IMG/VR virus record: IMGVR_UViG_3300006654_000661
Coordinates: 1 to 64,000 of that record
Length of the DNA: 64,000 nucleotides
Reading direction: 5' to 3' (one strand)
DNA from: a virus
Both the position numbers and the translations under genes were made by a program. This document shows positions 2,001-63,859 of this stretch, one piece after another. The stretch's first letter is position 1; each line of letters starts with the position of its first letter. The notes under the pieces were generated by a model. The model was not told where the DNA came from. It did not search any database and saw nothing but the letters and a program-made list of their open reading frames with translations.

Positions 2001-2126
2001 GTGAGAAACAATGTGATCCGCGACAAAATAGGAAACTACATCAAACAGGCTTGGATAATTTTATTTATCTGCGTGTTCGTGCTGCTTCCTATTTATATCG
2101 GCGTGACCAACGTACTTAACCACTAA
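2001..2126 (+). CDS. Possible 41-residue single-TM peptide at the left end of the prophage
   Basis: A GTG-started frame (VRNNVIRDK...) encodes a basic N-terminus followed by a hydrophobic helix of about 18 residues (WIILFICVFVLLPIYIGV). It runs opposite to the late genes and overlaps the last 11 bp of the polyvalent gene. No good ribosome binding site is visible. If real, its position beside attL on the non-late strand would suit a lysogen-expressed small membrane protein. Low confidence. Confidence 0.3.
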   Translation: MRNNVIRDKIGNYIKQAWIILFICVFVLLPIYIGVTNVLNH

Positions 2127-5100: not shown

Positions 5101-8100
5101 TGTTTCTGCAACCTTTCCCTTTCTTGGGTAATAGGTGTGATGAAACCCTCCATTATTTAGTGCGCTTCCTTTCTCACCGGCCAAGGTGAATACGCCATCA
5201 AACATACCAAAAGGAATTGGCTTTGCTTTTATCTCACCATCAAAATCCCCATCTGACTCATGTGTCAATGGAAACCCTGTATCATAGCCTTGCCGCTCTA
5301 AATCCGCTTTATTATTTCCGTTCAAACTAAACACCGCCGCTTTATTATCCGTGCTTGCAGGGCCATTTTTCGCCGCCGCTCTTGCCTTTTTAAGCAGGTA
5401 GAATAAATCGCTATCAGATACTTTAGCAAGTTTAGCTAAACCTAAGTCGCGCAATTTCTGACGAATAAGCCCTACAATCTCTTTTGCCAAGCGTTTAACA
5501 GTTGGCTTATTGCTTTGCTGCATGTGCGCTAGAAGTTCATCCATCAGCACGCGGTTTTTCATTTCCTGCGGCATATTGGTGCCATCTAAACCATTGATGT
5601 ATTTATCTAGTTTAATGCCGTGGCGCTTGGCGGTTTCGCGCAATCCTTTAAGGCCACCATTGGCAACGAATAGCGAATTAAGCTTTTTGGTAATGTCATT
5701 GCCGAATAGATTTTTAATGCCTAAGTGACCATAAGCCTCATGGAAAAGCGTTGTTTCCATATCGAGTGCGCTGGTATGCTGATCTAAAACTACATGGACC
5801 TTACCTTTATGGAATACACCTTTTACTTGATACTCTGCGCCTTGGGCTTTTGCTGCATCTTTTATTTCGCTAGGAAGATCATCATAAGAAGAAACAACCG
5901 AAACGTAATTCTTACCGGCACTACTGAGCCCCTTGAGGAAGCGGCCGACGATTTCATTTGCATTAGAACGACTAACGGCACTCGTGTTGGCGTTACTAGT
6001 GACAGTGCCAGCGTTGAGAGCGAATAAAGGCGGTTCAACATCAGAGTCAGCATCTTGAGGTTTATCGATAACTATTGTTTTTGAATTTACATTCGTTGAA
6101 TTGATAGCCTCTTTAAATGCACCTTCTGGTAATGGCGTTTCATCTGCGCCAATTTCGTCCAGCCATTCTCTAAACTGCTTATCTACTTTGTTTGAGCGCT
6201 CACCGGCCATGCTACTTGTAACAGCAACCAATCTACCGCCAGGCTTTAAGAATCGATACGCATGTGCAACGTGTCGCGCCTCTTGTCCTTTGGAAAAAGG
6301 TGGGTTCATTATGATGCGGTCATAATCTGCACTTGGGTTCATGGTAAGGAAGTCAGCACTGGTAGGGCGATAACCTTGCTCGGTCAAATATTCGCGTAAA
6401 CCGTTTGCCAGTTCGTTAGTGTCAACATTGTCTTTGCCAACTACCTCGGCGGCAGCATCAGCCAAGCTACCCACACCGGCGCTAGGCTCAAATACACTCA
6501 TGCCCTCTTCAATCTCGGCAAGTTCCATCACTTGCTTTGCCACAATAGGCGTAGAGTTAAAGAAGTCGTTTTCTTTGTACTGGCCTTGAAACTTAGAGAG
6601 CTCTATTTGCTTTTTGAGTTTATTGCTTCTCTTTGCAGGCTGCACGCTGCGGGTAATAGCGTCATATTCAAGCAATGCCGCACGCAACATAGGTGTTGAG
6701 ACAATACCCATACGCTGCAGGCGGTTAAAGTCTTTGGCCACTTCTTCATAATAAGCGTTTTCAGAATTAGCCTGTATAAACTCTTTGAATTTACCGAAGT
6801 GTTTATGGTTGGCAATATACATATCACCGCGACCATCTTTTTGCTTTCTCATTTCCGCTTCAGCATCAGCAAGCAACTTTTTACCTGCCATTGTATAGCC
6901 TTTGGTTTCGGCCATTTTGCTGGCTACACGCTTCACCATATCAGGGTACATGCGAGTGAGCGGGTATTCTGCCGAACGTACTTTTTGTTCAGGCGTGACG
7001 CCTTCTTTCCATTTAAGACCGCCAGCCACGCCGCCTTCGCGCTTGGTTTCAACTAAATCCTTGTCAGCATAGAGGCGTAATCTATTCCATGATGATGCAA
7101 GCAAATCGCGCTCAGTGCCGTTTGATAGCTTGGTTAGGTATTTGGCCGTTCCATCCTTGATAGCATTCGCCAATGCGCGTAATTCTTTCGCCTTAGCTAG
7201 CTCGGCCTCTACACTTTCCATTGCGTAACCGGCTTCTCTAGCACGCTTGGCTGTGTTAGTTTTTCTGCTTGCGCCTAAAGATTCATTAGCACGCTCTTCA
7301 ATCCTGTCGGCTAATTCTTCTAGGCTTGCGGTTTTATCCTTGGCTACTTTCGTTTTCTCTACGCTTTCACCTTCAAGCACTTTGAGGAATTCGCTTCTAG
7401 CATCTTCAGTTCTAAATTGAAAGCCAGGTATTGCACCTTGCTTATTGTATGCAGAGTAATAGCCGCCAAGCTGCTTTGATTTGGTGTTGAGCTCGGTATA
7501 CAAATCACGGTCTACGCGATCAGCCAGTGACACAATGAATAACTCATGCCCTTTCTTGCTGTGTGTTGACTCGTGTAATTCGTAATTAACCTCACCGTCT
7601 ACGGCGCTTATCTGCTTGGTTGCTCTTGCTTCTTGTTCTGCCAATCTTTCATCAGCATGAAGCCTGTCGTATTGCGCCCACTGTTCTGGTGTAAAGTCTT
7701 TTTGTAGCCCGTTTCTAGCCGCGTTCCTGAAATCTTCAAGCGTTTGCGGGTTACTCATGCCTTCAATTCGCTGTCTACGCTCGTTGAATGCTTCGTCAAC
7801 TTTATCCTTACGCGCTTTCATGTTTTCGCGTAGCTGTTCATCGGTTAGATTTTTAAGCTTTTCCTTGGTCGATTCATACCAAGATTTACCACCAAAGTCC
7901 GTGATTGAAATCACGCCACTGTCAGAAGTAACGAAACCAAACTCCGTTACCATTTGACGGTAAGAGGCATTTACCAGTTGATCCTTTTTCATGCCTGAGT
8001 CATGCCAGCCGCGATAAAATTTATCTTTTATCTGCGCCACGGTATGCGAGGCAATGTGTTCTTTCATTTCTGCTTCGTTATCAATGACCACATCAAGTGC

Positions 8101-11100
8101 GGCCCTTGCTTCATCAGCCGTTATGGTTTCATCAGCATTGCGGTACTTATCCCAAAACGCTTGTCTTTGCTCCGTTGGAGATAGGTTTTTAGTTTTTTGA
8201 TTGGGTTTTGATTGTGCTGGTTTTGCTTGCTCGCCTTCAAGAATAGTTTTTGCGCGTTTAGCCAGGTTAGACCGTGCACCAACCACTTTCACTAGGCCAC
8301 CCATTTTATTGAGCGCCTTATCTACCGATTGAACCAAGTCTTTTGCGTCAGCTTCGCTCATGCCATCAAGAATGGTTTCCATTTTCTTGTTTGCGAATTT
8401 GCGAGTTTCTTTTGCGAGTTCGTTTCGGCCATCAGTAAGATCAGCGGCAATGGTGCCAGCCAAGCGGGTAAACTCGTTTCTATCTTTTACCTTTTTGCTG
8501 TCCGCTTCCTTTTGAGCCTTTTGCTTTCTCTGCGCGTCATTCATTACCGCTTCGACTGAAGAGGCAATTCTCTTGCGCATACGATCAAGTTTATCGACTT
8601 CGGTGGTAAAGGCCTTGTTATTCTTCTCGGCTCGCTTGTTGTATTTATTGGTGTCTAAATTATCGCGCCCTGAAACAATCCAGCTTGGGTTGTTTTGGCT
8701 TCGTATAGACTCACGGCGAGTGAATTGCGCTTGCTCATTCAGATAGTTTTCAGTTAACTCTTTCGCCTTTGCCTTGCGTTCTGGCGTATCGAGTAAACCT
8801 TTTTCATTAAGCTCATTAAGAATGTCATCAGCCGCGCTATTGAGTTCAGCATTAAAGTCACGACCACGCCCTAAGTGTGTAGTGCGGTTGTAGGCTTCTT
8901 CAACGTCTTTGCTAATAGAGGGAACGGTAACGGTTACGCCGTGGGTTTCTTTTTTGGTTTCGGTGGGTTCGGCAAGTTGAGCCTTTCTTGCATTTGCAGC
9001 GGCTTCAACTTCCCTAATAAAGTCAACGCTACTTGTTTTATCTTGCTTGACTTCTTGAATTACATTATCAAAATCCGTGTCACTTTTAAGGTACTTGATT
9101 CGAGATAGCAACCCTTTGCGATAAGCTTCGACTTGCTTCTTTTGCGTTTCAGGGTTTACAGTTGAAACGTTGCTTACTTCGCTTTCTGTGCCTGCTTGCC
9201 CAGTATGTTCAGGGCTAACTGTTTCTAACTCACCGCCAAACATATCATTTTGACTTTCATCAGCAATGCTTTCAGGCTGTTCAACTTCGACCTGCTCTTG
9301 AGGTTTAGTGTCTAATGGGCTTGCACCTATTTCGTTTCTAATCTCTGAAACTAGCTCCGGTTTAGTTTCCCAGCTATCCCATGCTTTAGCTTGCGTTGAT
9401 ATTTCTTCAATCCGCTTATTTAAGCTTTTAGGATCCTTAACGTTAACGCCTTCCGCTTTTGCTAGTTTAGGGTTTTTAGCTGCGCCTCGAATAGCATTTA
9501 ACCTAGTGCGCAATTCTCTTTGCTTGGTGGCTGCAACCTTTGCCATTTCCTCAGCTTCCCGCATTGCTGAATCATCAAAGCCAAATAAGTCGCCTGTTTG
9601 CTGTTCTTGACCGCTATCCTTGCGCATTGATTTAACTGCGCGAATAAGGTTTTCTGCGTAGGTAATGGAGCGCTGATCATTCATCAGCGCCTTTAATGCT
9701 AGTGATTGTAACGCTTCATCTTTGGGGGCGGTTTCGGCTATTCGCTCTGCGGCTTGTCCTGTAATTCTGCCACTCCGTTGCGCTTCAACTGTCTCGCGAG
9801 TAGCACTAGACGCGATTCTGTAGGCCGTTCTCCCGATTGCACGGTCGAGTAAGCCGAGTTCTTTTGCATCCTCTTCTGTGAGTTTGTCTTGTTGGAATAG
9901 TTCGACATAATCCTCTACCTGCCCTTTATCTTCACGAATATTAAGTATAGCATCGGTACGCTTTCCGTCCTCCGCTGTAAAGCCTTCATCCTCATAATGA
10001 TACTGTGCGGGGATATTGTCTACCCCTGCTCGCTTAGCTAAATCAAATCTGTGACGCCCAGTAATAATTTCTTTATCACCGTTTGACCGAACCCATACTT
10101 GAATTGGGGCCATGCCTACTGGGTCATATTTTCCGGTTAGCGGCTCAACAACACCATCTTGATCTGCGCCTGACTTGAACTGAGGAATGTCATCAGATAA
10201 TTTCAACTCTGATAACGGTGCTTCAATAACAACTTTTTCATGTGGGTTTAGTGGATTGTCATTTGTGTCTCGTCGTGCTGCCAAAGAAGTATTCTCTGCA
10301 TCGCCTGTTCCAATTGCTCCGTTTGCACTCTCACGTAACCGTCCTCCATTATCTCCCCGTACATCGCGTGGTAATGAAGTTCCAGCGCTTCCCACTTGCT
10401 GATCACTTGGTTGTTCAATGCTTCCTGTATCCAATCCAACATTGCTATTCTCCGATACCCAGCCATAGCCGCCATTTACTTCAATGACCTGCGGGTTTAA
10501 TCCCTGCTCTTTGGCTTGACGAAATTCCTTTGTCAGTTGTGCGGCTCTGCGCCCACTGAACGGATCGCCATTGCGTTTAACTTGAACGTTTCTACCATCT
10601 TCACCAAAAATAATATCTTTTTGCGGTAAAGCTCGGTTAGACACTTCGCCAACATTATCCGCAAATTCTTGCGCCTGCTGCATGGGCCTGCCATCTTCAG
10701 CAATAATCGTATCGGCGCGATTAGGCAATCCGCGAGGGCGTTCAAACTCACCATCTATAATAGGCGCCTCTAATACTTGGCCGACTGGCACGGAACGCGG
10801 TGGTTCGCGGTACTGCTCATACTCTCCATCAAAAGTATATGGCTGCATTTGCCCACGGTAAGGCATATCGTTTTGACCATACTGCCAATTAGGTTGCGTA
10901 TCGCCTGCGGTTTCGCCAGGAATAACTTCAACTTCGTTACCGGTAATAGCCTGCTCTTGTGCTGGCCCAATATCCGCAAACGGGTCTGGTGTCTCAAGCG
11001 CTTCATTGATGCCTTGTGTAAGGTCGGTTTCTTCCATTTCGCTAATGGTGGGTTTCTCACCGCGATAACGGTTGTAGGCTGATTGACCTGCTTCGGTTCC

Positions 11101-11832
11101 CCCACGAATAGTACCGCCAACTGCTGCACCGCCCACAAATGCTTCGTCTAGGTTTTCCAGTTCATCAAGCGATTTACCGCCACCCCATTGCGCTAATGCT
11201 TCTTGTCCGGTTTCCGTAATACCTTCTGTTAAAGCAGATTGACCAACACGCTTAATAACGTTTTTGCCTTCACCACCAAGTATTCGACCAATGGAAGATT
11301 CCACCCCAAGACGCTCTAAGCCTGCTTGACCAAAACCTGAAACGGTTGCACGCCATGGCTGTTTATTATCTTCTGGCTGCGTTTCGTATGCCTCGTTAGA
11401 CATACCGCCACCCATAGCAAACAAGCCAAGCGGGTTTAATGCTGCGGCCATCATAGGCACTGACTGTGCAGTCATTTCGCCAACATAACTACCCACATCA
11501 CTGAATGAATCAATATCTTTGTATGACGCTACTGAAGGTGTATAAGCTTGCTGTTCGCGAATGTTAGTTTGTATACCTTCATCTGCCCACTTCGATAGCG
11601 AGCCACCTTGCCCAATAGTACGGCCAATAGCGTTTGTTTGCTCTTCTTTGGGTACGCCTACATCAGTAAAGCCTTTTACAGCGCGATAGCCTAACTCTTG
11701 TAATTTATCTACGCCTGCGCCCAATGCAGGCATAATGCCCGACTCGCCTTGTTGCGCATCGGGTAAGTCTGCAAAAGGGTCGCTTTGTGTATCAGGAAGA
11801 TCAGCAAATGGGTTGTTCTGGTCAATAGCCAT
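2116..11832 (-). CDS. Giant polyvalent virion protein (ParB-like, N6-methylase, metallopeptidase, LPD38-like)
   Basis: A 3238-residue protein, last of the late operon. It starts with a repeated NPFADLPD/DPFADLPD motif. Around residues 540-640 is a ParB/sulfiredoxin-like nuclease domain (GDKEIITGRHRFDLAKRAG). About 1760-1930 is an adenine methylase domain with FEPSAGVGSLA (SAM motif I) and NPPF. Near 2030 is HEAYGHLG, a zinc metallopeptidase-type helix. Around 2650-2960 is a segment resembling the LPD38 domain (NPEFLITNVTRD; later TVNFNRKGQAG). Long charged linkers separate these, and the C-terminus is a Lys/Glu coiled coil. This is the polyvalent-protein arrangement, in which injected virion proteins protect incoming DNA (compare P1 DarB). 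Ejection with the DNA is inferred from its place after the internal-protein genes. Confidence 0.85.
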   Translation of the reverse strand: MAIDQNNPFADLPDTQSDPFADLPDAQQGESGIMPALGAGVDKLQELGYRAVKGFTDVGVPKEEQTNAIGRTIGQGGSLSKWADEGIQTNIREQQAYTPSVASYKDIDSFSDVGSYVGEMTAQSVPMMAAALNPLGLFAMGGGMSNEAYETQPEDNKQPWRATVSGFGQAGLERLGVESSIGRILGGEGKNVIKRVGQSALTEGITETGQEALAQWGGGKSLDELENLDEAFVGGAAVGGTIRGGTEAGQSAYNRYRGEKPTISEMEETDLTQGINEALETPDPFADIGPAQEQAITGNEVEVIPGETAGDTQPNWQYGQNDMPYRGQMQPYTFDGEYEQYREPPRSVPVGQVLEAPIIDGEFERPRGLPNRADTIIAEDGRPMQQAQEFADNVGEVSNRALPQKDIIFGEDGRNVQVKRNGDPFSGRRAAQLTKEFRQAKEQGLNPQVIEVNGGYGWVSENSNVGLDTGSIEQPSDQQVGSAGTSLPRDVRGDNGGRLRESANGAIGTGDAENTSLAARRDTNDNPLNPHEKVVIEAPLSELKLSDDIPQFKSGADQDGVVEPLTGKYDPVGMAPIQVWVRSNGDKEIITGRHRFDLAKRAGVDNIPAQYHYEDEGFTAEDGKRTDAILNIREDKGQVEDYVELFQQDKLTEEDAKELGLLDRAIGRTAYRIASSATRETVEAQRSGRITGQAAERIAETAPKDEALQSLALKALMNDQRSITYAENLIRAVKSMRKDSGQEQQTGDLFGFDDSAMREAEEMAKVAATKQRELRTRLNAIRGAAKNPKLAKAEGVNVKDPKSLNKRIEEISTQAKAWDSWETKPELVSEIRNEIGASPLDTKPQEQVEVEQPESIADESQNDMFGGELETVSPEHTGQAGTESEVSNVSTVNPETQKKQVEAYRKGLLSRIKYLKSDTDFDNVIQEVKQDKTSSVDFIREVEAAANARKAQLAEPTETKKETHGVTVTVPSISKDVEEAYNRTTHLGRGRDFNAELNSAADDILNELNEKGLLDTPERKAKAKELTENYLNEQAQFTRRESIRSQNNPSWIVSGRDNLDTNKYNKRAEKNNKAFTTEVDKLDRMRKRIASSVEAVMNDAQRKQKAQKEADSKKVKDRNEFTRLAGTIAADLTDGRNELAKETRKFANKKMETILDGMSEADAKDLVQSVDKALNKMGGLVKVVGARSNLAKRAKTILEGEQAKPAQSKPNQKTKNLSPTEQRQAFWDKYRNADETITADEARAALDVVIDNEAEMKEHIASHTVAQIKDKFYRGWHDSGMKKDQLVNASYRQMVTEFGFVTSDSGVISITDFGGKSWYESTKEKLKNLTDEQLRENMKARKDKVDEAFNERRQRIEGMSNPQTLEDFRNAARNGLQKDFTPEQWAQYDRLHADERLAEQEARATKQISAVDGEVNYELHESTHSKKGHELFIVSLADRVDRDLYTELNTKSKQLGGYYSAYNKQGAIPGFQFRTEDARSEFLKVLEGESVEKTKVAKDKTASLEELADRIEERANESLGASRKTNTAKRAREAGYAMESVEAELAKAKELRALANAIKDGTAKYLTKLSNGTERDLLASSWNRLRLYADKDLVETKREGGVAGGLKWKEGVTPEQKVRSAEYPLTRMYPDMVKRVASKMAETKGYTMAGKKLLADAEAEMRKQKDGRGDMYIANHKHFGKFKEFIQANSENAYYEEVAKDFNRLQRMGIVSTPMLRAALLEYDAITRSVQPAKRSNKLKKQIELSKFQGQYKENDFFNSTPIVAKQVMELAEIEEGMSVFEPSAGVGSLADAAAEVVGKDNVDTNELANGLREYLTEQGYRPTSADFLTMNPSADYDRIIMNPPFSKGQEARHVAHAYRFLKPGGRLVAVTSSMAGERSNKVDKQFREWLDEIGADETPLPEGAFKEAINSTNVNSKTIVIDKPQDADSDVEPPLFALNAGTVTSNANTSAVSRSNANEIVGRFLKGLSSAGKNYVSVVSSYDDLPSEIKDAAKAQGAEYQVKGVFHKGKVHVVLDQHTSALDMETTLFHEAYGHLGIKNLFGNDITKKLNSLFVANGGLKGLRETAKRHGIKLDKYINGLDGTNMPQEMKNRVLMDELLAHMQQSNKPTVKRLAKEIVGLIRQKLRDLGLAKLAKVSDSDLFYLLKKARAAAKNGPASTDNKAAVFSLNGNNKADLERQGYDTGFPLTHESDGDFDGEIKAKPIPFGMFDGVFTLAGEKGSALNNGGFHHTYYPRKGKVAETSDLDWDKALETTKEEYSYLEGSEIEALTEAAFYDQAQSEYDIDFLSGDDAEVSWEIQNLRGKIAVAQDFDAIEMSDENGTSYFIPFGSKAKYTGKPLQNEDAAMFRTTDDATPFTMPEESWTDNALRFIQDKFNRVKRAQDTVRKAGIDTSDSADVYGIESLYYGKVEEDFRLLAEKYLEPMAEKMAKHNIKQEELDLFLYALHAPERNAHIHSMDEEMTAGSGMTDDEARRIIDAVNRDPRRSVYTELQNSVREMIDERTQQMFEQGLIDEETFSGFQDNYRFYVPLKGQAKDEGGKPQGTGMGFNIKGKESISALGRKSRAESPLLHAYLDTQRAITRGHKNEVGNALLNLIEEAPNPELWSAYTTEGPLERKKGPDGKIKMMPMSKEKMSALSDKPQSEWFATKRDGMSYYIKLDDPVLAMQMKNVGVDNGNRITQVLGSVNRFLSMMATSANPEFLITNVTRDIQTALYNMAAESDVDDGKLKSTDIKSLTKNVLRDMPKALAGIRRALRENRTDTEWSQIFDDFRKAGAKTGYFDMKDIETQSKDLQKLMKLQSKGGLIKHGKAALKFIEDYNSAVENTIRLSVYKNAIDAGISRHQAAVVAKNLTVNFNRKGQAGTWLNSLYLFANAGIQGTANFARAIGTFKTVDGERKLNLAQKAGIAMAGVGFSMALMNRFIAGEDDDGESYWDKVPEYVKERNFVLMLPGSKEYVTFPMPYGYNVFANFGTAAESVISGGEVSDNAGFLVKAVMGSFLPIGLSEGNDALETGVKTIMPQIGKPFIDLATNSNFFGSAIYSEANENYGSKKSDAGSGFKSTNEFYKQVAMGLNKGTGGSEYQSGLIDVHPETVRYMLEYIGSGASRFVLNTAETATRGAQGEFEPSRTPFIRRFYGETTDHGDSNTFYERLDEVETLQAELESLKGKERLEFRKENKALLRLSDDAKRTQKQLKQLRKRLDRFKEKDNKEVVEKIEAQIETAIDRFNLKYNEISG

Positions 11833-55440: not shown

Positions 55441-55638
55441 GTGATGAACATAGTGCCTTTAAAAGCATATTGCGCAATTAGCCATGAAACCAAAGCTGCT
55501 GTGGAAGCGAGAATCGAACGCGGAATTTGGATTGAAGGTGTACACTATTACAAAATAAACAAAGTTCGCGAACGATGGATCGACATTAAGGCGGTGGAAG
55601 AATGGGCGAGAAACGGAGGAAGCTGCCGCGCGGCGTAA
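55441..55638 (+). CDS. Excisionase
   Basis: 65 residues (or 64 from the ATG at 55444). LKAYCAISHETKAAVEARIERGIWIEGVHYYKINKVRERWIDIKAVEEWARN is the excisionase-like pattern of a winged-helix recombination directionality factor. It overlaps the integrase start by 37 bp, as expected for a coordinated xis-int pair. Confidence 0.8.
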   Translation: MMNIVPLKAYCAISHETKAAVEARIERGIWIEGVHYYKINKVRERWIDIKAVEEWARNGGSCRAA

Positions 55639-56819
55639 GCATAAAGCAAAACCGTGCCAGCGAATCATTGCAGGTAGCGTTCACCTATAAAGGTGTTCGC
55701 TGCCGTGAGGTGTTGCGGATTGAACCCACAACAAGAAACATAAAATATGCCGACAACCTACTAGGCGAAATCCAAAACGCCATTGAGAGAAAAACATTTC
55801 AATACGCGGATTACTTCCCAAATTCTGCCAAGCTAAGAATATTCGGGCGGCAAGTTGATCGCACTAAAACCGTTATTGATTATTTAGACGAGTATCAAAA
55901 CGCCGCAAAATTACGCGGCCTATCTCCTTCTACACTTGAAGGGTATCGTAAGCTTAAAAAATCATTATCTGAATTGCATGATGTACCCGTTACCGAACTA
56001 ACCCCCGCACTATTAAAGGATTTTGTTAGGCGATCAGGTAATTCACCCAAGACGTTGCGCAACAAATTTAGCTATCTACGAAGCGCATTAGCTGAAGCGC
56101 TCACTGATGGGTTAGTAGAGATAAACCCAATTGATACTATTAAGCTATCCAACTACGTGGCCAAAGATAACAAGGTTAGCTTGGATGGCGATCACAATGA
56201 TATTGATCCATTTACGCCAAGTGAAGTTGAGTCAATTCTTAACCACGCTCGCCAAGATGAAATTAATATAGTGAAGTTTGTGTTTAATACTGGGATGCGG
56301 CCTAGTGAGTGGTCAGCGTTAAGGTGGAATGATATTGATTTTATCAATAACCTGGTAGTCGTTAAGGTAGCGATTGTTCACCATCAAATGAAAGGCACAA
56401 AAACCAATGCAGGCAAACGGGCCATTCCATTAAATGATGAAGCGCTTGAGGCGTTAAATGCGCAAAAGGCATTATCATTTGTTGGTGGTGAATTTGTGTT
56501 CCCTCAAAAAGTAGGGATGCCGGTTCAACTCCCTAACGGGGAAATGAATCGGATCAACCCCGACTCATTCAGGAAGCATAAATGGTCGCGGATCTTAAAA
56601 TCTGCGGGGGTTCGTTATCGTTATCCTTATCAGATGCGACACACGTTTGCGACCAGACACATAAGCCAAGGTGTTAACTTGTGGCAATTGGCAAATTGGA
56701 TGGGGCACGCTTCGCCAGAAATGCTATTTAGGCATTACGGTAAATTTATCGAAGATTACGAAAAAACAAAGCAAAATGACACGCAAATGACACGCGACAT
56801 AGGATCGAAAATAAAATAA
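55602..56819 (+). CDS. int: Tyrosine integrase of the prophage
   Basis: 405 residues. An N-terminal arm-binding region of the DUF3596 kind, a SAM-like core-binding domain (about 90-185), then the catalytic domain: Arg233 (TGMRPSE), Arg346 (YPYQMRHTFA), His369 (MGHAS) and nucleophile Tyr379 (RHYGKF). The position of the usual His three residues before the second Arg is Tyr343, as in many integrases of this group. The last codons contain two arm-like octamers. Directs integration at the ssrA 3' end, 30 bp before the attachment core. Confidence 0.93.
   Translation: MGEKRRKLPRGVSIKQNRASESLQVAFTYKGVRCREVLRIEPTTRNIKYADNLLGEIQNAIERKTFQYADYFPNSAKLRIFGRQVDRTKTVIDYLDEYQNAAKLRGLSPSTLEGYRKLKKSLSELHDVPVTELTPALLKDFVRRSGNSPKTLRNKFSYLRSALAEALTDGLVEINPIDTIKLSNYVAKDNKVSLDGDHNDIDPFTPSEVESILNHARQDEINIVKFVFNTGMRPSEWSALRWNDIDFINNLVVVKVAIVHHQMKGTKTNAGKRAIPLNDEALEALNAQKALSFVGGEFVFPQKVGMPVQLPNGEMNRINPDSFRKHKWSRILKSAGVRYRYPYQMRHTFATRHISQGVNLWQLANWMGHASPEMLFRHYGKFIEDYEKTKQNDTQMTRDIGSKIK
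56775..56793 (+). promoter_or_regulatory. Candidate integrase arm sites at the right end
   Basis: AATGACAC at 56775-56782 and 56786-56793, in the final codons of the integrase gene. The same octamer is present three times at 1891-1919. Confidence 0.6.
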
Positions 56820-56849: not shown

Positions 56850-56883
56850 GACGCGGGTTCAAATCCCGCCAGCTCCACCAATT
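56850..56883 (+). repeat. Middle attachment site (prophage right end and satellite left end)
   Basis: 32 bases identical to the tmRNA 3' end from 56850, including CCA; bases 56854-56883 (30 bp) match 62791-62820. Thus the copy serves both the prophage right boundary and the left boundary of the small element, as in tandem insertion at one site. Confidence 0.9.
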
Positions 56884-56889
56884 CCAGAT

Positions 56890-56913
56890 GCGGTCTAGAA
56901 CCTTCTAGACCGC
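56890..56913. promoter_or_regulatory. Long palindrome at the left end of the small element
   Basis: GCGGTCTAGAA CC TTCTAGACCGC, an 11-bp perfect arm. It is 7 bp inside the element. With a 2-nt spacer it is more likely a dimeric protein site or cruciform than a terminator. Confidence 0.55.
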
Positions 56914-57047
56914 TCTATCCCTCTAATAACGCTGCTTCCAGCGAATCATCACTTTCTACTAATTCGGTCTCTCAGGGTCTAAATAGGGCTCAAAAGTGTC
57001 GTGAATCTGTACTCGACTGTCGCGAGACTGTCACCTGCCCTAATGAA

Positions 57048-58685
57048 TTGACAAGTGGTATTGGTACACGTGAATGTCACCTTTTTCGCAAAAAAATATT
57101 CGATTTCATATCCCCTCTTGCTTATGACGCTGCGCATAAGTACCTCAAGCTTTCTAAACAACATGACTATGTACAAGCCAACCGCTTCCTTTCCAGCCTA
57201 AATAAACACCTTCACTTAGCAGATCTAAACCTAACTTCTGACATCAAAGAACTCAAAGCCTTTGCTAAATCGAAAGCTATGGAATGCTTGCGCGATACCG
57301 CCGATTTAAGTGAAGCCCACGCACTCTGTCTATGCAAAGCCAAACTACTTAAATACAACATCAGTCTTCCTGACGACATTTCAGCCACTGAGGGCATTAT
57401 TCAAGCGCGTTCAGAGAAATTTTGGTTCAACAAGCTGAAACGAATTGCCAGCCAAAAAGTAGAAGAAATACGTCGACAGTTAGATTTAGTGAATCAGAAA
57501 AAAAGTGCTTATTGCAGTAGTGACCGATTGCGCCAATTTAAGTGGGAAAAAGAGCAAGCCCTTGAGTTTATGAAATCTAAATGGTTCTGCAGTGCTGATG
57601 GTGAGTTTATTTCTATGCTGGATGCTTATCAGGCAAACGTATCTAATCCTGAAGTAAGAAGAGCCGAATTGATGGTTCGAATAAAGGGAACGGAAGAGTA
57701 TTCTAAACTGCTAAACCATGTGGGGTGCTTTTATACCATCACCACACCATCCAAGTTCCATTCACACTACCAATCGGGTAAGCCGAACCCTAAATATTTA
57801 AATTATTCTGTTAAAGATGCTAATGAGTATCTTAATGCCCAATGGCGCAAAGCTAGAGCACAGTTCCATCGCGAAGGAATAGAAGTGTTCGGCTTGCGTG
57901 TTGTTGAGCCACACCATGACGGCACACCACATTGGCATTTATTGCTATTCACACCGCCAGAACAGTTGGCACGTGTAACAAGCATTTTAAGGCATTATGC
58001 AATGGAAGATGATGCCGACGAATCCGGCGCGGACAAAAATAGATTCAAAGCAGAGCCAATAGATCCTGAAAAGGGTTCAGCGCAAGACTATATCGCTAAA
58101 TACATTTGTAAAAATATTGATGGTGAATTTCTAGATACCGACAACTACGGCAACGATGCGAAACAGTCTGCATCAAAAATCACTGCTTGGGCATCACTAT
58201 ACAATATAAGGCAGTTTCAATTTTTAGGGCTGCCTTCGGTTACGTTATGGCGACAGTTAAGAAAGTTAGAATTAGAAAGTAGTGACACACCATTAGGAAA
58301 GCTTCAAAAAGCGGCAGATGAATCTGATTGGCTTTCTTATTTAATAATGATGGGTGGCGCAAACGTGAAGCGTATAGAACGCCCTTTCTCCCTCGAGTAT
58401 GAAAATCAAATTAAAACGCAGTATCAACATTGTGAATTAAGCACCCTTTCAAAACACGCTTACAACCAAAAGCCAAAACACATCCGTTTCACTGAAGGCA
58501 CATACGCTATACCAGATAAAAACTGGCAGCTCTTTTCGTCACCCGCTGAACGAGTTGACAGCCCGCCCTCCCAACGGGAAGGACGGGCTGTCGACGAAGG
58601 CTCAGGGGGTAGCCGAAGGCGACTGGGGATTTCCCGTGAGGGGAAAGCCCCAAAAGCCGAAGGCATCTTGGACTTGTGTAAATAA
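57048..58685 (+). CDS. HUH replication endonuclease, phage P2 gpA-like
   Basis: 545 residues. Rolling-circle initiator pattern: VVEPHHDGTPHWHLLLF gives the HUH metal motif (His295, His297), and DYIAKYICKN gives two tyrosines in YxxxY spacing (Tyr348, Tyr352), the dual-Tyr arrangement of P2 gpA. The N-terminus is helical. No ATG is available in the region; the TTG at 57048 is the best start but lacks a strong ribosome binding site, and the frame is open upstream. The last 45 codons pass through two strong hairpins (58554-58651), giving an odd Gly/Arg/Ser tail. Shorter than P2 gpA (about 760). Confidence 0.88.
   Translation: MTSGIGTRECHLFRKKIFDFISPLAYDAAHKYLKLSKQHDYVQANRFLSSLNKHLHLADLNLTSDIKELKAFAKSKAMECLRDTADLSEAHALCLCKAKLLKYNISLPDDISATEGIIQARSEKFWFNKLKRIASQKVEEIRRQLDLVNQKKSAYCSSDRLRQFKWEKEQALEFMKSKWFCSADGEFISMLDAYQANVSNPEVRRAELMVRIKGTEEYSKLLNHVGCFYTITTPSKFHSHYQSGKPNPKYLNYSVKDANEYLNAQWRKARAQFHREGIEVFGLRVVEPHHDGTPHWHLLLFTPPEQLARVTSILRHYAMEDDADESGADKNRFKAEPIDPEKGSAQDYIAKYICKNIDGEFLDTDNYGNDAKQSASKITAWASLYNIRQFQFLGLPSVTLWRQLRKLELESSDTPLGKLQKAADESDWLSYLIMMGGANVKRIERPFSLEYENQIKTQYQHCELSTLSKHAYNQKPKHIRFTEGTYAIPDKNWQLFSSPAERVDSPPSQREGRAVDEGSGGSRRRLGISREGKAPKAEGILDLCK
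58554..58651 (+). other. Two consecutive hairpins at the end of the rep gene, candidate origin
   Basis: GTTGACAGCCCG (58554-58565) pairs with CGGGCTGTCGAC (58584-58595), with inner CCC/GGG pairing. The second hairpin is GGGGATTTCCC (58625-58635) with GGGAAAGCCCC (58641-58651). P2-type initiators nick at an origin inside their own gene, so this may be the nick site; it could also be a single-strand initiation site. Confidence 0.5.
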
Positions 58686-58716
58686 CTGTACTGAACAAAA
58701 CAAACTAGAGACAAAT

Positions 58717-59118
58717 ATGAAAATTGGTAGAAATGATAAATGCCCATGTGGGAGCAACAAGAAATACAAGCATTGCTGCGCTAATAAAAATGTTACTCGG
58801 GAAAGCAGTACTCCGCTATCTATGTCAGAGCAGCAATTTCTCGGTTATTCACGAGAACGCTTGCCCGAAGAGTCACCATTTGATTTATCTACAGATGGCC
58901 TCTGCTGTTTAGTAATGACATTAGATAGCCGAAAAGCAAATACACTGAATGAAATGCATAACACTGACGCCTTTATTAGCGGCATGGTTATCGTTACTTC
59001 TGGTGAATGCTCTAATGTGCAAATGGCTGGACCGTTCGGTTCATTAGATGAGGCTTTTGAATATTCACGTATCGAGCATGGCGCTATCAGATTCCACAGC
59101 AAACCCGAATTCATATAA
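58717..59118 (+). CDS. SEC-C motif protein
   Basis: 133 residues from ATG 58717. The N-terminus MKIGRNDKCPCGSNKKYKHC is the SEC-C zinc motif (CPCGS...HCC) first seen in SecA. The remaining 100 residues are an alpha/beta domain (LCCLVMTLDSRKANTLNEMH; GPFGSLDEAFEYSRI). SEC-C proteins occur in phage-defence and toxin contexts as well as in SecA. Role here unknown; it follows the replication gene. Confidence 0.75.
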   Translation: MKIGRNDKCPCGSNKKYKHCCANKNVTRESSTPLSMSEQQFLGYSRERLPEESPFDLSTDGLCCLVMTLDSRKANTLNEMHNTDAFISGMVIVTSGECSNVQMAGPFGSLDEAFEYSRIEHGAIRFHSKPEFI

Positions 59119-59165
59119 ACCGCAACGCATTATTCATAATGATCTTTAAAAATACGGTCTTGTTT

Positions 59166-60104
59166 TTAACGAAGGAATGTTCCCTCCTTCGTTATATGGT
59201 CAAAAGAAAACACATGTTCTGACGGTGCCACCCTGCACTTTCCAACGAACCTATTATGAAACTCTCTGCTCTTTTCAATTAGTAGGTCTTCCCCACAAAC
59301 TGAGCATTTCGCTTCAATCGTAACTGCTTTCATGCATATAGGTGCGTTAGTTTGTCCTGTCGCGTTAATCGTTAGTAGCTTATTTTTTGCTAATTTTTTA
59401 GACCAAAATGCAGGATATGTCGTTATCCCTTTATTAAGTAACTCGTGCAGCGTCTTGAAAATGATACCTGCAACTATGCCAAAAATAACCACACATGTAT
59501 TAGTCGTCTTGCTGCCCCACTCTACCAATCCAATAAGCGTGTAGAGTGTTAGTACAATCGACGTCAGTAAACCTATTGCAACTAATATAAGCTTTCTTGG
59601 AGTTAGAATCAGATTGGAAAAAGGTTTAGCCCATGGCAATGCATCATCAATATGTGTGACGACGTACCGCACCTTTAGGGCATTTGAATTTCCTGTACCA
59701 GTCGATTTCACAGAACCAGTGCGAATTCTCCACTTCGTAGGAATGCCACCTTTCGAATTCACGCGCTCTAGTCTAAGTGGGCTTAAATTTTTTTCTGTAA
59801 GTAATGCGTTCAATGAAGATGTTTGAGCAAAAAGCTTTGAGAGTTTTTCTTCATGCCCTTTCATCCAGCGTCTTGCTTTCTCTGAATCGTCTTGCCCATT
59901 CATAGACTTATATATTTCTGCAGCAGTAAAGTAAAAATGGGATTCATCAGCCGCATTTTGTCGAATCAATCGATGAGTTTGTTCTATTAGAAAAGCCCCA
60001 ATTTCTTCACCAACTATGTTCGGTAGGTGAACACTAAAAAACTGCAACGCTACGTCTAACGACTTCTCTAGATCTTCAACATCCTGTTTTTCAACAACTT
60101 CCAT
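59166..60104 (-). CDS. Two-TM protein with winged-helix-like N-terminus and zinc-like C-terminus
   Basis: 312 residues from the ATG at 60104; a longer open frame to 60164 begins with TTG. Residues about 60-145 (FTAAEIYKSMNGQDDSEKARR ... GGIPTKWRIR) resemble a winged helix. Two membrane helices follow (ILVAIGLLTSIVLTLYTLIG; TCVVIFGIVAGIIFKTLHEL). The cytoplasmic end has CSVCGEDL and GKCRVAPSEH, a possible zinc site. It is the only minus-strand gene in the element and diverges from xis-int. No homologue recognised. Could be a defence or exclusion cargo gene. Confidence 0.6.
   Translation of the reverse strand: MEVVEKQDVEDLEKSLDVALQFFSVHLPNIVGEEIGAFLIEQTHRLIRQNAADESHFYFTAAEIYKSMNGQDDSEKARRWMKGHEEKLSKLFAQTSSLNALLTEKNLSPLRLERVNSKGGIPTKWRIRTGSVKSTGTGNSNALKVRYVVTHIDDALPWAKPFSNLILTPRKLILVAIGLLTSIVLTLYTLIGLVEWGSKTTNTCVVIFGIVAGIIFKTLHELLNKGITTYPAFWSKKLAKNKLLTINATGQTNAPICMKAVTIEAKCSVCGEDLLIEKSREFHNRFVGKCRVAPSEHVFSFDHITKEGTFLR
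59167..59193. other. 10-bp inverted repeat between convergent genes
   Basis: TAACGAAGGA (59167-59176) and TCCTTCGTTA (59184-59193) pair perfectly across 7 nt, covering the last codons of the minus-strand gene. T-rich on the left (TTTTT before it). Probably a bidirectional hairpin, possibly a terminator for the convergent pair. Confidence 0.5.
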
Positions 60105-60197
60105 ATTTTCACTACCCGTATGTAACCCGTATGCCCCCTGTTTTAGCAGACCAATCAAGACCAATCTAGTACTTCGTTTATACGGGAGTACAAATTT
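60105..60197. promoter_or_regulatory. Divergent control region of the small element
   Basis: 93 bp between the minus-strand membrane gene and xis. It contains CCCGTATG twice near 60115-60133, an inverted TACGGG near 60181-60186, and a direct repeat AGACCAATC (60149-60167). Likely operator or Xis/Int-binding sites; the binder is unknown. Confidence 0.5.
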
Positions 60198-60374
60198 ATG
60201 AGCGGATTAGTAACAACAGACAAACTTTCTGAAATGACAGGATATTCAAAAGAAGCAATTCGAATGAAGGTGAAAAAAGGTGTTTGGATAAAACAGCGGC
60301 ATTATCTAAAAGCGCCTGATGGCAGATTGATTTTTATCGTTGAAATGATTTACCAATGGATGAAAGGAGAATAA
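60198..60374 (+). CDS. Excisionase of the small element
   Basis: 58 residues, missing from gene calls because of size. VTTDKLSEMTGYSKEAIRMKVKKGVWIKQRHYLKAPDGRLIFIVEMIYQWMKG is a MerR/AlpA-like winged helix with the excisionase pattern. Resembles the prophage excisionase in the GVW...HY and I...W positions, and stands 4 bases before int. Confidence 0.8.
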   Translation: MSGLVTTDKLSEMTGYSKEAIRMKVKKGVWIKQRHYLKAPDGRLIFIVEMIYQWMKGE

Positions 60375-60378
60375 CAAA

Positions 60379-61443
60379 ATGAGTGTTAAAGCTGTAAACG
60401 GCGGATATGTAATAGACTTCACTCTTAACCATGAAAGATTCAGAGAAACGATACCCGCCCCACATAATAAAACCGCTGCAAAAAGAATTGAGGAACAAGA
60501 AGCTATTTACAAGATGGCGATTTCACTAAACGACAAAGCAATTGCGAGTCGCTTTCCCAACAGCAAGATAATGCAAAAAGCTTTTGATAATGGCTGTACT
60601 TACACTATTCACGATTATTCAAACATTTGGTTTAAACAAAAGCAGCGAAACTGGTCACATACAACTATTCGGGGCTATACACAAAAATACAATTCATACA
60701 TTAAGCCTAATTGGGGACACCTGATTTTAAATGAGTTTAAAGCTAGTATGTTTGATGAATGGGCATCTGAATGCTTACTCTCTGGTAAATCAATTAATGA
60801 AACTCGCAATGTGCTTAGTCAGATCTTCAAGCGTGCATACTTTGATGGTGTAATCGACTCAAATCCAGTCGAACGCATTGAAAGGTACAAACAAAAAATT
60901 AATGAACCAAAGCCCTTCAATAAGTCTGAGATCAAAAAAATACTTAATGCGTTACAGTCCCCCTATAAAGAGTTTTTTCAATTTGCATTTTATACAGGCT
61001 TGCGGACTGGTGAATTACTTGGACTTCGTTGGGAAGACGTTGATATAGAAAAACGTTTGGCACACATACGGGTTAATATTACTTCTGGAAAAGAGAAAGT
61101 ACCTAAAACTGCTGGAAGCATTCGAACTATAGAATTGCACTGCTTGGCATTACAGGCTCTTACATCAATAGAATCATCAAAGTTCTTTAATTCGAAAAGA
61201 GTATTTATTGACCCAAAGACTATGAAAGAGTACAAATATGCTGACGGGTTACGTAAATACACTTGGAAACCTGCTCTTAAAAAGCTAAATATTCCTTATC
61301 GTTACCCTTACCAATGTAGGCATACTTATGCATCAATGATGCTATCATCTGGCAAAAATCCTATGTGGGTTGCAAAGCAAATGGGTCATGCTGATTGGGG
61401 AATGATTCGAAAAGTTTATGGAAGATGGATAAACGAGTCTTAG
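60379..61443 (+). CDS. int: Tyrosine integrase of the small element
   Basis: 354 residues. Arm-binding N-terminus, core-binding domain about 75-170, catalytic domain with Arg209 (TGLRTGE), Arg314 (YPYQCRHTYAS), His337 (MGHAD) and Tyr347 (KVYGRW). Tyr311 holds the position of the usual His. Same subgroup as the prophage integrase but only distantly similar, so both evolved the ssrA target separately or from an old ancestor. Confidence 0.93.
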   Translation: MSVKAVNGGYVIDFTLNHERFRETIPAPHNKTAAKRIEEQEAIYKMAISLNDKAIASRFPNSKIMQKAFDNGCTYTIHDYSNIWFKQKQRNWSHTTIRGYTQKYNSYIKPNWGHLILNEFKASMFDEWASECLLSGKSINETRNVLSQIFKRAYFDGVIDSNPVERIERYKQKINEPKPFNKSEIKKILNALQSPYKEFFQFAFYTGLRTGELLGLRWEDVDIEKRLAHIRVNITSGKEKVPKTAGSIRTIELHCLALQALTSIESSKFFNSKRVFIDPKTMKEYKYADGLRKYTWKPALKKLNIPYRYPYQCRHTYASMMLSSGKNPMWVAKQMGHADWGMIRKVYGRWINES

Positions 61444-61494
61444 TTATTTAGTCGTATTTCTTGTACGATTCGGCACAAGAACACAACAAATTCT

Positions 61495-61523
61495 TTGCAA
61501 CTATTTTTTAGTTGCACTATTAT
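61495..61523 (+). promoter_or_regulatory. Promoter and operator of the hicA-hicB-secB cassette
   Basis: TTGCAA (61495-61500), 17-bp spacer, TATTAT (61518-61523). Palindrome TGCAACTA (61496-61503) and TAGTTGCA (61509-61516) lies across the spacer. This is the usual layout for autoregulation by a ribbon-helix-helix antitoxin such as HicB. Confidence 0.7.
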
Positions 61524-61549
61524 CACATGGAACCGATGCGAGTACGGAA

Positions 61550-61810
61550 GTGGGAAGTCAAGACAAATTCAAGATTTACATACAAAGAATACCGGTACCG
61601 AGCGACTGCAGATTTTCTAAACTCAGTAGCTTTTTACAAAATCTCGGTTTTACATTACACAATAGAGGGAAAACCAGCGGGAGTAGGATTATTTTCTTCG
61701 ATGAATCAATGAATAAAATTATCCTTCATAAGCCGCACGGCAGTGATCCCGTTTGTCAAAGTGCACTTAATGATGTTGTACAGAAGTTGAAAGAATATGG
61801 ATATTTGTAG
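61550..61810 (+). CDS. hicA: HicA-type toxin (mRNA interferase)
   Basis: 86 residues from the GTG at 61550; the only other starts are worse. FSKLSSFLQNLGFTLHNRGKTSGSRIIFF, then IILHKPHGSDPV and a final helix, match the HicA double-stranded RNA-binding-like fold, with the invariant His in HKPH. Longer than many HicA proteins (about 60) but in range for the subfamily with KTSGSR. Would cleave mRNA and tmRNA in other systems. Start not certain. Confidence 0.8.
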   Translation: MGSQDKFKIYIQRIPVPSDCRFSKLSSFLQNLGFTLHNRGKTSGSRIIFFDESMNKIILHKPHGSDPVCQSALNDVVQKLKEYGYL

Positions 61811-61819
61811 AGGTGCGAT

Positions 61820-62296
61820 ATGAACGTTTTAGATTATAAAGGGTACATAGGCTCAATAGAAACGTGTCTTCATAAGAAAAATCTTTATGGGAAAATATTA
61901 TATATTAACGATCTAGTTACCTTTTCAGGTGATACAGTATTGGAACTAGAAGCAGAGTTTAAAAGTGCTGTTGATGATTATTTGATAATTTGTGAAGAAT
62001 TAGGAGCTGAACCAGATAAAACATTTAAAGGTTCACTCAATGTTCGGCTTGGTAATGACTTGCACAGGCAGGTTGCTTATCAATCCGAAAGGATGGGCAT
62101 TAAAATTAATGACTTTATCAAAAAAGCCTGCGAGGAAAAATTGATAACTAGAGATGTGATCAATTTGAATGTTACGCACATCACAAGGACTTCTACTACT
62201 CAAGACGTAGTATTTGGAGAAGAAGCTACCTTTAGTTATGCTAATAAATCAATCTCAGCCAAGAATGTTGATTATGATTCAAAGGACTGCCATTAA
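61820..62296 (+). CDS. hicB: HicB-type antitoxin with C-terminal extension
   Basis: 158 residues. The degenerate RNase H-like N-terminus (DYKGYIGSIETCLHKKNLYGKI, FKSAVDDYLIICEELGAEPD), then a ribbon-helix-helix (FKGSLNVRLGNDLHRQVAYQSERMGIKINDFI). The first 107 residues cover the normal HicB. The last 50 (from about LITRDVINLNVTHITRT) are an extension with no motif, the kind of hydrophobic tail called chaperone addiction (ChAD) in TAC antitoxins. GAGGTG ribosome binding site upstream. Confidence 0.85.
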   Translation: MNVLDYKGYIGSIETCLHKKNLYGKILYINDLVTFSGDTVLELEAEFKSAVDDYLIICEELGAEPDKTFKGSLNVRLGNDLHRQVAYQSERMGIKINDFIKKACEEKLITRDVINLNVTHITRTSTTQDVVFGEEATFSYANKSISAKNVDYDSKDCH

Positions 62297-62299
62297 CTA

Positions 62300-62761
62300 A
62301 TGAACATTCAATTAGATTTACTGAGATCAAAGCTCTTACATTCATCATTCGATGATAAAAGATTAGATGTCTCTAACAAAAAAGGCTTAGTTAAAAGTTC
62401 TTTAGCAATTAATTTTGAAGAAATCGATACTACTGAAGACTCGGAAAATAATGTGATCGAATTACATTTTGAGTCTAAATCCGAATTAACTGGATTTGTT
62501 GGTCATGATTTAGAAGACTCAGAGATTGCGTTCTCCTTAACTCTCGAGGCAGTTTCTTCATTCACTGTTGATATAACTTCTGTTTCAAAGGATGTAGAGA
62601 ATACTGTTCAATCCTTAGTTGAAACCGACTATGTCAGATATCTAGTTATGGCGGCATGTAAGCAATTTCACATTGAACAGGCGGGACAATTGTTAAGGTC
62701 AACTAAGTTTAGTAGTGTACCGGCTCAATATTCTGGTGACATTAGCAGTGACGAGAGTTAG
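62300..62761 (+). CDS. SecB-like chaperone candidate, third gene of a TAC cassette
   Basis: 153 residues, 3 bases after hicB. An N-terminal helix (QLDLLRSKLL), then strand pairs (NVIELHFESKSELTG; EIAFSLTLEAVSSFTVDI), then a Tyr-Val-Arg helix (DYVRYLVMAACKQFHIEQAG) and a KFSSVP turn. This strand-strand-helix order resembles SecB, whose equivalent is YPYIRE. The name rests on this pattern plus its place after an extended HicB. Identity is moderate, so the call is inferred. Ends 29 bases before the att core. Confidence 0.55.
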   Translation: MNIQLDLLRSKLLHSSFDDKRLDVSNKKGLVKSSLAINFEEIDTTEDSENNVIELHFESKSELTGFVGHDLEDSEIAFSLTLEAVSSFTVDITSVSKDVENTVQSLVETDYVRYLVMAACKQFHIEQAGQLLRSTKFSSVPAQYSGDISSDES

Positions 62762-62790
62762 CTAAGCAATTGAAATCATGAAAATAGTTA

Positions 62791-62820
62791 CGGGTTCAAA
62801 TCCCGCCAGCTCCACCAATT
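62791..62820 (+). repeat. Right attachment site of the small element
   Basis: 27 bp of tmRNA 3' end plus ATT, identical to 56854-56883. Bases after it (CGTATTAAGCCCC) are the native ssrA downstream sequence, giving the original attB flank. Confidence 0.9.
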
Positions 62821-62826
62821 CGTATT

Positions 62827-62850
62827 AAGCCCCTATTTTAGGGGCTTTTT
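62827..62850 (+). terminator. Native ssrA terminator, now displaced
   Basis: AAGCCCC, a TATTTTA loop and GGGGCTT followed by a T-run. It lies 9 bp after the third CCA, the position expected for the tmRNA terminator in the empty chromosome. Confidence 0.9.
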
Positions 62851-63859
62851 GCTATCTAGCCCACTATATCCTAAAGCTGTAGCAGAATTCCCCCCACTAT
62901 TACCTCACTAACAAAATCAGAAAAGATAAAGCGCTTACTGCCCTCGACGAAGATTAAACTATTTATACTCTTTTCAATTTACTAAATTTCATAGCCAAGC
63001 TCGTGGCATTAGTGCTATCACTCGGTTAAACGTTCCAAGGTTTTATTAAGTGTTAGTACGAGAATACCGATACCTATTCATGGGATGAGAGCCCAGATGT
63101 AGACGTGACGATTGAAATAACCAGGCTCTAAAAACCGGCCAAAATACAATACACTTTAAGCATCATCCCAGTAACCAGAATGAGAAAAATTATGAATGAC
63201 ACATTGGTCGGTATTACTAATTGAGCCTTATTAGTTCTCCTACTAGAGAACGATACGAGAATGATCAATCTGATAATTTTAGCGTAATCTTAACCTTCCT
63301 ATTTAAACCTTCTTATTTATACCTTCTTATTTAAACCTTCTTATTTAAACCTTCTTATTTAAACCTTCTTTTTTAAACAACTAATAACAACTCAATTAAC
63401 ATTCCTCCCCATGCGATGAGCAGCCCAAGTATTAAGATGAAATGCAGAACTAATCTTAAGCAGGTTAAATATCGCACTAACAATTTAAATATTAGCTTAT
63501 CCGATTCAGAAGATGGATTTCTGAAGTTTTACACCTGAAATTACTGCATGAAAATTACGCAAAATAAACAAAATTTGACCGCCAGTTTAATTAACACCTA
63601 AAGATTTTTCATTTTTCAACCAAAAATCCCGCATATAACAAAAACCTAATGTTTAAATAAAAATCAACAATAAGTTAATACTCCCAAAAGGGTTATTCAT
63701 TTCTTCGTAAAAAATTGATTTCGTCTGCTCATGCTCATTAGAATGCGCGCCCTCTTAGACACAAGTATAACTTTGAACACAAAATAACCTTTTAAGGCTT
63801 GCCTAAAATTTGGCCTTATTTGATAACAAGCACGAAAATTTAATTTACCAGGAACACAC
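62851..63859. other. About 1 kb without a recognised gene
   Basis: AT-rich, no convincing frame longer than about 75 codons in either direction. It holds the 14-bp tandem repeat at 63292-63378. The last 150 bp are likely the promoter and leader for the TonB-dependent receptor. May be a remnant of older insertions at ssrA. Confidence 0.4.
63292..63378 (+). repeat. 14-bp tandem repeat, six copies
   Basis: Unit AACCTTCTTATTTA at 63292, 63306, 63320, 63334, 63348 and 63362, with single-base differences in the first, third and last copies, then a partial copy. A minisatellite-like tract, likely to vary among strains. Confidence 0.9.

Follow-up and report, generated by a model that had tools for sequence, protein, structure and literature searches.

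A probable HicAB-type toxin-antitoxin-chaperone operon as cargo of a small ssrA-integrated element

Three closely spaced genes lie at the right end of a small element integrated at ssrA, and the question they raise is whether a toxin, a long-tailed antitoxin and a third protein together constitute a toxin-antitoxin-chaperone (TAC) system. The window considered here is the whole stretch of DNA that was analysed, 64,000 nucleotides of the 66.2-kb viral record IMGVR_UViG_3300006654_000661 (positions 1 to 64,000), and the cassette lies at its right end. The cassette is read as a HicAB-type TAC operon carried as cargo of an ssrA-integrated mobile element, with a probability of about 0.8. Gene content and predicted fold support this reading, which would imply a toxic HicA, an antitoxin that depends on its chaperone and, possibly, an anti-phage activity.

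The setting is defined by exact copies of the 26-bp 3' end of ssrA, of which the window holds three where none is expected by chance: the end of ssrA itself at 1795-1820 (tmRNA gene at 1463-1820; ARAGORN, Rfam), a second att core at 56855-56880 and a third at 62792-62817, all on the plus strand. The ssrA site is therefore occupied by two elements in tandem: a ~55-kb prophage, which encodes an integrase of its own (55602-56819), and, beyond the middle core, an element of 5.9 kb (56881-62817). The latter encodes, on the plus strand, a replication initiator (57048-58685; Phage_GPA/nicking at origin, Pfam 294 bits, PHROG 91), an excisionase-like protein (60198-60374; PHROG 539, 5.6e-7) and a tyrosine integrase (60379-61443; Pfam PF00589, 67.6 bits). 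No structural genes were recognised in it with Pfam or PHROGs, and 'satellite' is a reasonable label on this gene content. Its relatives among viral contigs extend to the integrase only, at ~35%, with none for Rep; for the host gene beside ssrA, the nearest genome found is 74% identical. The cassette begins after the integrase gene and ends 30 bp inside the attR-side end, so that the sequence-only reading was right to place it at the right end of a small ssrA-inserted element beside a prophage; the A+T-rich composition it had remarked on is also borne out (G+C is ~34% across the cassette and 36-46% over the remainder of the element).

Three further features of this region are recorded for their own sake. 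The small element encodes a 332-residue protein (59166-60164, minus strand) for which Pfam, PHROGs and tblastn against phages gave no match; the prophage contains a single, very large ORF of 3238 residues (2116-11832, minus strand); and the host intergenic DNA to the right of the element carries tandem repeats of ~14 bp (aaccttcttattta; 63297-63375).

The first two genes are readily assigned. The product of hicA (61550-61810; GTG start, 86 residues) passes the Pfam HicA_toxin profile (PF07927, 28.5 bits, cut-off 27) and matches PHROG 8887 ('toxin') at 2e-13; that of hicB (61820-62296; 158 residues) scores 48.3 bits with the Pfam HicB profile (PF05534, cut-off 21) and matches PHROG 9151 ('HicB-like antitoxin') at 8e-38, and by these cut-offs the pair is a type II toxin-antitoxin system. 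HicB comprises a HicB fold and a C-terminal DNA-binding region; the PHROG match covers residues 1-108 only, and a 50-residue tail is therefore left over (residues 109-158; 62144-62293), which ends in histidine and is a candidate ChAD. A third gene (62300-62761) encodes 153 residues. The three ORFs are intact, lie on the plus strand and are separated by 9 and 3 bp, a spacing from which co-transcription is likely; ORFs, Pfam and PHROGs thus agree with the earlier description of hicA, a hicB extended by about 50 residues and a third gene at these distances. The PADLOC defence profiles gave no match for the cassette. HicA keeps the GSR...HKPH motifs, and an alignment finds GSR...H-x-PH common to HicAs of two- and three-gene loci; a catalytic change from GSH to GSR was considered as a special feature of this toxin and rejected, because two-gene relatives have GSR too.

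Upstream of hicA, a candidate promoter (TTGCAA-N17-TATTAT, 61495-61523, plus strand) matches the consensus at 9 of 12 positions, and its -35 hexamer and spacer are overlapped by a perfect palindrome, TGCAACTA-TTTTT-TAGTTGCA (61496-61516). The earlier claim of a good promoter in front of the cassette holds in part: the pair coincides with the operator, but -35/-10 pairs of such quality are no more frequent than chance (5 found, 5.7 expected). The palindromic operator that had also been claimed is present and recurs upstream of distant relatives. A scan for G[CT]AACT-N5-9-AGTT[AG]C upstream of hicAB genes found the pattern at 33 of the 40 loci with a third gene and at 25 of the 105 with two genes; in the background it occurred in 96 of 6335 tiles, and some of these hits are the very operators counted here. 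The arrangement TGCAACTA-N5-TAGTTGCA is kept from Enterobacteria to Opitutae, upstream of hicAB genes of the RHH type with or without a third gene; throughout the clade, the palindrome very probably serves HicB as its binding site, and since two-gene HicABs carry it as well, it is not specific to TACs. The cassette thus pairs an antitoxin bearing a DNA-binding domain with a shared palindrome over its promoter, to which HicB is predicted to bind. A terminator-like hairpin is predicted just outside the small element (62827-62847, plus strand) and would terminate the cassette transcript.

Whether the tail of HicB has anything to do with the third gene was considered across 155 HicB loci made non-redundant by 5-mer sharing, with long HicBs defined as those of at least 140 residues and a third gene as an ORF of 90-220 residues starting no more than 30 bp from the hicB stop. 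A third gene adjoins 40 of 46 long-tailed HicBs and 6 of 109 short-tailed ones (37 of 43 and 5 of 79 in a first-pass count); the Fisher p of 3e-24 is indicative, because the loci are related by descent and the length cut-off was chosen once the data had been inspected. Where no third gene follows, HicB mostly stops at about 108-125 residues. An antitoxin extension linked to the neighbouring gene, as TACs have, is thus observed. Compared with the HicB core, the tails are enriched in H, W, R and S and depleted in L, M and C, in line with ChAD. The nearest HicB, from the host family (locus L234), is 52% identical over its full length within the same layout, while the third proteins can barely be aligned; the chaperone side therefore evolves far faster. 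Three-gene loci showed no excess proximity to integrases over two-gene loci in the few loci available (1 of 16 and 3 of 37). By eye, the ORFs adjoining short-tailed HicBs include an IS transposase, a SUI1-like protein and a TrpF-like protein, apparently unrelated, and one HicB (L037) ends at 131 residues, apparently cut by an IS transposase gene.

The third protein had no sequence match in Pfam, NCBIfam, PADLOC, PHROGs or the PDB; tblastn turned up no relative either, whether among phages, plasmids and viral contigs or in genomes, and a host-family search returned chance-level matches only; the SecB profile PF02556 matched nothing in the record, and the third protein of one relative (L032) reached 12.7 bits with that profile (cut-off 26). 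Synteny by way of HicB relatives did yield counterparts, among them genes in a Rahnella prophage (L002), in E. coli phage mEp234 and at many further loci. An AlphaFold model built from an alignment of these syntenic proteins, which may themselves pull the fold, has four strands followed by a helix (mean pLDDT 82.4, pTM 0.76). Its best Foldseek matches in the PDB are SecB of H. influenzae and E. coli and the Mycobacterium tuberculosis (Mtb) Rv1957-ChAD complex (probability 1.00, E 8.7e-5 to 1.7e-3), the only entries of another kind among the top matches being the streptococcal proteins 2hng and 2o2a; TM-scores to the SecB-type matches are modest, at ~0.5. By hhalign, the profile of the relatives scores 23.2 with SecB, in an alignment that spans the C-terminal strands and the helix, and none of 100 column shuffles exceeded 17.9; the window protein as a single sequence gives a null result against SecB and a marginal 17.8 against the relatives' profile, with 1 of 100 shuffles higher. 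SecB homology is accordingly well supported for the family and supported for the window protein, where predicted structure and synteny carry more weight than sequence does. The sequence-only reading had proposed a SecB-like third gene and named structure prediction as a test that could refute it; the prediction favoured the proposal, with SecB and the Mtb TAC chaperone bound to its ChAD at the top. The operon thus has a third gene whose product is predicted to adopt a SecB fold.

A stronger case is made by the relative in phage mEp234, which lends the proposal additional support. The gene beside hicAB in this phage (L003:2748-3878), present in HK106 too, belongs to PHROG 19522 and was deposited as hypothetical; the three-gene locus sits between cI and N in the prophage immunity region. 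The AlphaFold model of the mEp234 protein has a pLDDT of 91.3, and its best structural match is Rv1957 (TM 0.69-0.71, rmsd 3.1-3.4). From this model, the classic coliphages mEp234 and HK106 appear to carry a TAC.

A second regularity concerns the last residue of the antitoxin. A C-terminal histidine is found in 31 of 40 non-redundant three-gene HicBs and in 5 of 109 short ones; in the window its codon lies at 62291-62293, and the HicBs of mEp234 (L003), L030, L067 and L234 end in the same way. The possibility that it is a by-product of gene overlap was rejected: CAT and CAC are used equally (16 and 16) and the spacing between hicB and the third gene ranges from -29 to +26, so that selection acts on the histidine as a residue of the protein and not through overlap. 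Recognition by some common machinery, a protease for instance, against which the third protein would act as guard, would account for its presence also beside third genes that are not SecB-like.

Not every third gene is SecB-like. At L062, L072, L130, L133 and L267, proteins of an unnamed family of 104-116 residues with an L-x-KHYG/KHLG motif adjoin long-tailed HicBs ending in histidine (a Pfam search with those of L062 and L072 gave no match), and at L075 (4523-4933) such a HicB is followed by a DUF6941-like gene (25.3 bits), as perhaps at L048 and L268. The third gene is therefore not always a chaperone. A broader scheme, rather doubtful as a whole, is that the near-invariant histidine marks HicB for degradation or serves as a docking site, that third proteins of different kinds can replace one another as its guard, each sensing its own trigger, such as proteins of an invading phage, and that the small ssrA element uses its cassette against rival phages.

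Precedents suggest how the operon might work. The HicAB-SecB system of Methylomonas methanica is controlled by its chaperone, with HicB residues 119-159 forming a transferable ChAD (PMC5105189); in CmdTAC, a phage capsid protein diverts the chaperone and the antitoxin is lost in a ClpP-dependent manner (PMC11618068). By analogy, HicA of the cassette would be an mRNA-cleaving toxin held by HicB, and HicB on the promoter palindrome would repress the operon. The 50-residue tail would render HicB unstable unless bound by the SecB-like protein (chaperone addiction); if the chaperone were then diverted, for instance by freshly synthesised phage proteins, as happens in CmdTAC, HicB would be degraded and HicA released.

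It is conceivable, if improbable, that HicA and HicB work as a two-gene system and that the SecB-fold protein is an accessory, such as a co-repressor or another sensor, with no role in HicB folding. Such a role would suit the long-tailed, histidine-ending HicBs that adjoin L-x-KHYG and DUF6941-like proteins, but HicBs without a third gene mostly have no tail, the tail departs in composition from the HicB core in the way expected of a ChAD, and the closest fold match is a TAC chaperone itself. The cassette might also be the decaying remnant of a TAC without present function, and the high A+T content could be taken in that sense, as could the fact that no collection searched yielded a protein closely related to the third one; the three frames are nevertheless intact and closely spaced, HicA keeps GSR...HKPH and the operator is kept, and the host-family locus L234 retains the whole layout with a HicB 52% identical and a third protein barely similar, which makes decay very improbable.

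A different alternative leaves the TAC core as it is and concerns only the step of phage defence: the TAC may serve to maintain the 5.9-kb element by addiction. Maintenance modules are common on mobile elements of this type, and such a function would fit an element that encodes an integrase, an excisionase and a replication initiator and carries the cassette 30 bp from attR. Against it stand the phage defence provided by CmdTAC and MqsRAC (PMC9519451), the position of the mEp234 relative between cI and N in an immunity region, and the two-gene prophage HicAB2 of P. putida, which gave no prophage stabilisation, and no phage defence either (PMC12894663). Maintenance is a serious possibility, at somewhat less than even odds, and the reading of the cassette as a TAC is the same with either purpose.

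Among characterised systems, one close in kind is that of M. methanica, in which HicA, a HicB with a ChAD extension of ~40-50 residues and a SecB-like third gene likewise form one operon (PMC5105189); since HicAB-SecB TACs are already known, the cassette is not a new kind of system. The M. methanica chaperone shares 53% identity with that of a Vibrio TAC, whereas that of the window has no detectable sequence relative, and the M. methanica HicB ends in ...LEKQYA (from a published primer) instead of histidine. HigB1-HigA1-SecB-TA of Mtb (Rv1955-Rv1957; PDB 5mtw) is alike in layout and logic and provides the nearest solved TAC chaperone fold, but it is a HigBA system and its chaperone is 9-13% identical. 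CmdTAC and MqsRAC (PMC9519451, PMC11618068) share with the proposal a SecB-like third component without which their antitoxins are unstable; their toxins and antitoxins are unrelated to those of the window, and the phage trigger demonstrated for them is here only presumed. Class 4 hicAB loci, with an RHH-type HicB, have in common with the window HicA, a C-terminal DNA-binding domain in HicB and a palindromic operator, and the terms 'chaperone', 'third gene' and 'three-gene' are absent from the main text of the survey, covering 14 contexts, that describes this class (Gerdes, 2024; PMC10865869). The loci of mEp234 and HK106 resemble that of the window in their three genes, long HicB ending in histidine, operator and predicted SecB fold; they differ in lying in a lambdoid prophage and not in a small ssrA element, and their third protein is ~16% identical to that of the window.

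Two things are new in this comparison: a clade of chaperones below sequence detection, present as hypothetical proteins (PHROG 19522) in lambdoid immunity regions, and the C-terminal histidine as a hallmark of three-gene HicBs, which has no mention in the TAC and hicAB literature compared here and is kept where the third gene has been exchanged for one that is not SecB-like. Searches for TAC chaperones rely on similarity to SecB or to closely related TAC chaperones already known, and they miss this clade; the number of HicAB-type TACs is therefore probably underestimated, chiefly in and around prophages. The histidine, encoded equally by CAT and CAC, offers a simple target for an experiment on tail recognition, and, with the mEp234 and HK106 cassettes, a possible use of chaperone-guarded toxins by temperate phages against rivals becomes directly testable in E. 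coli.
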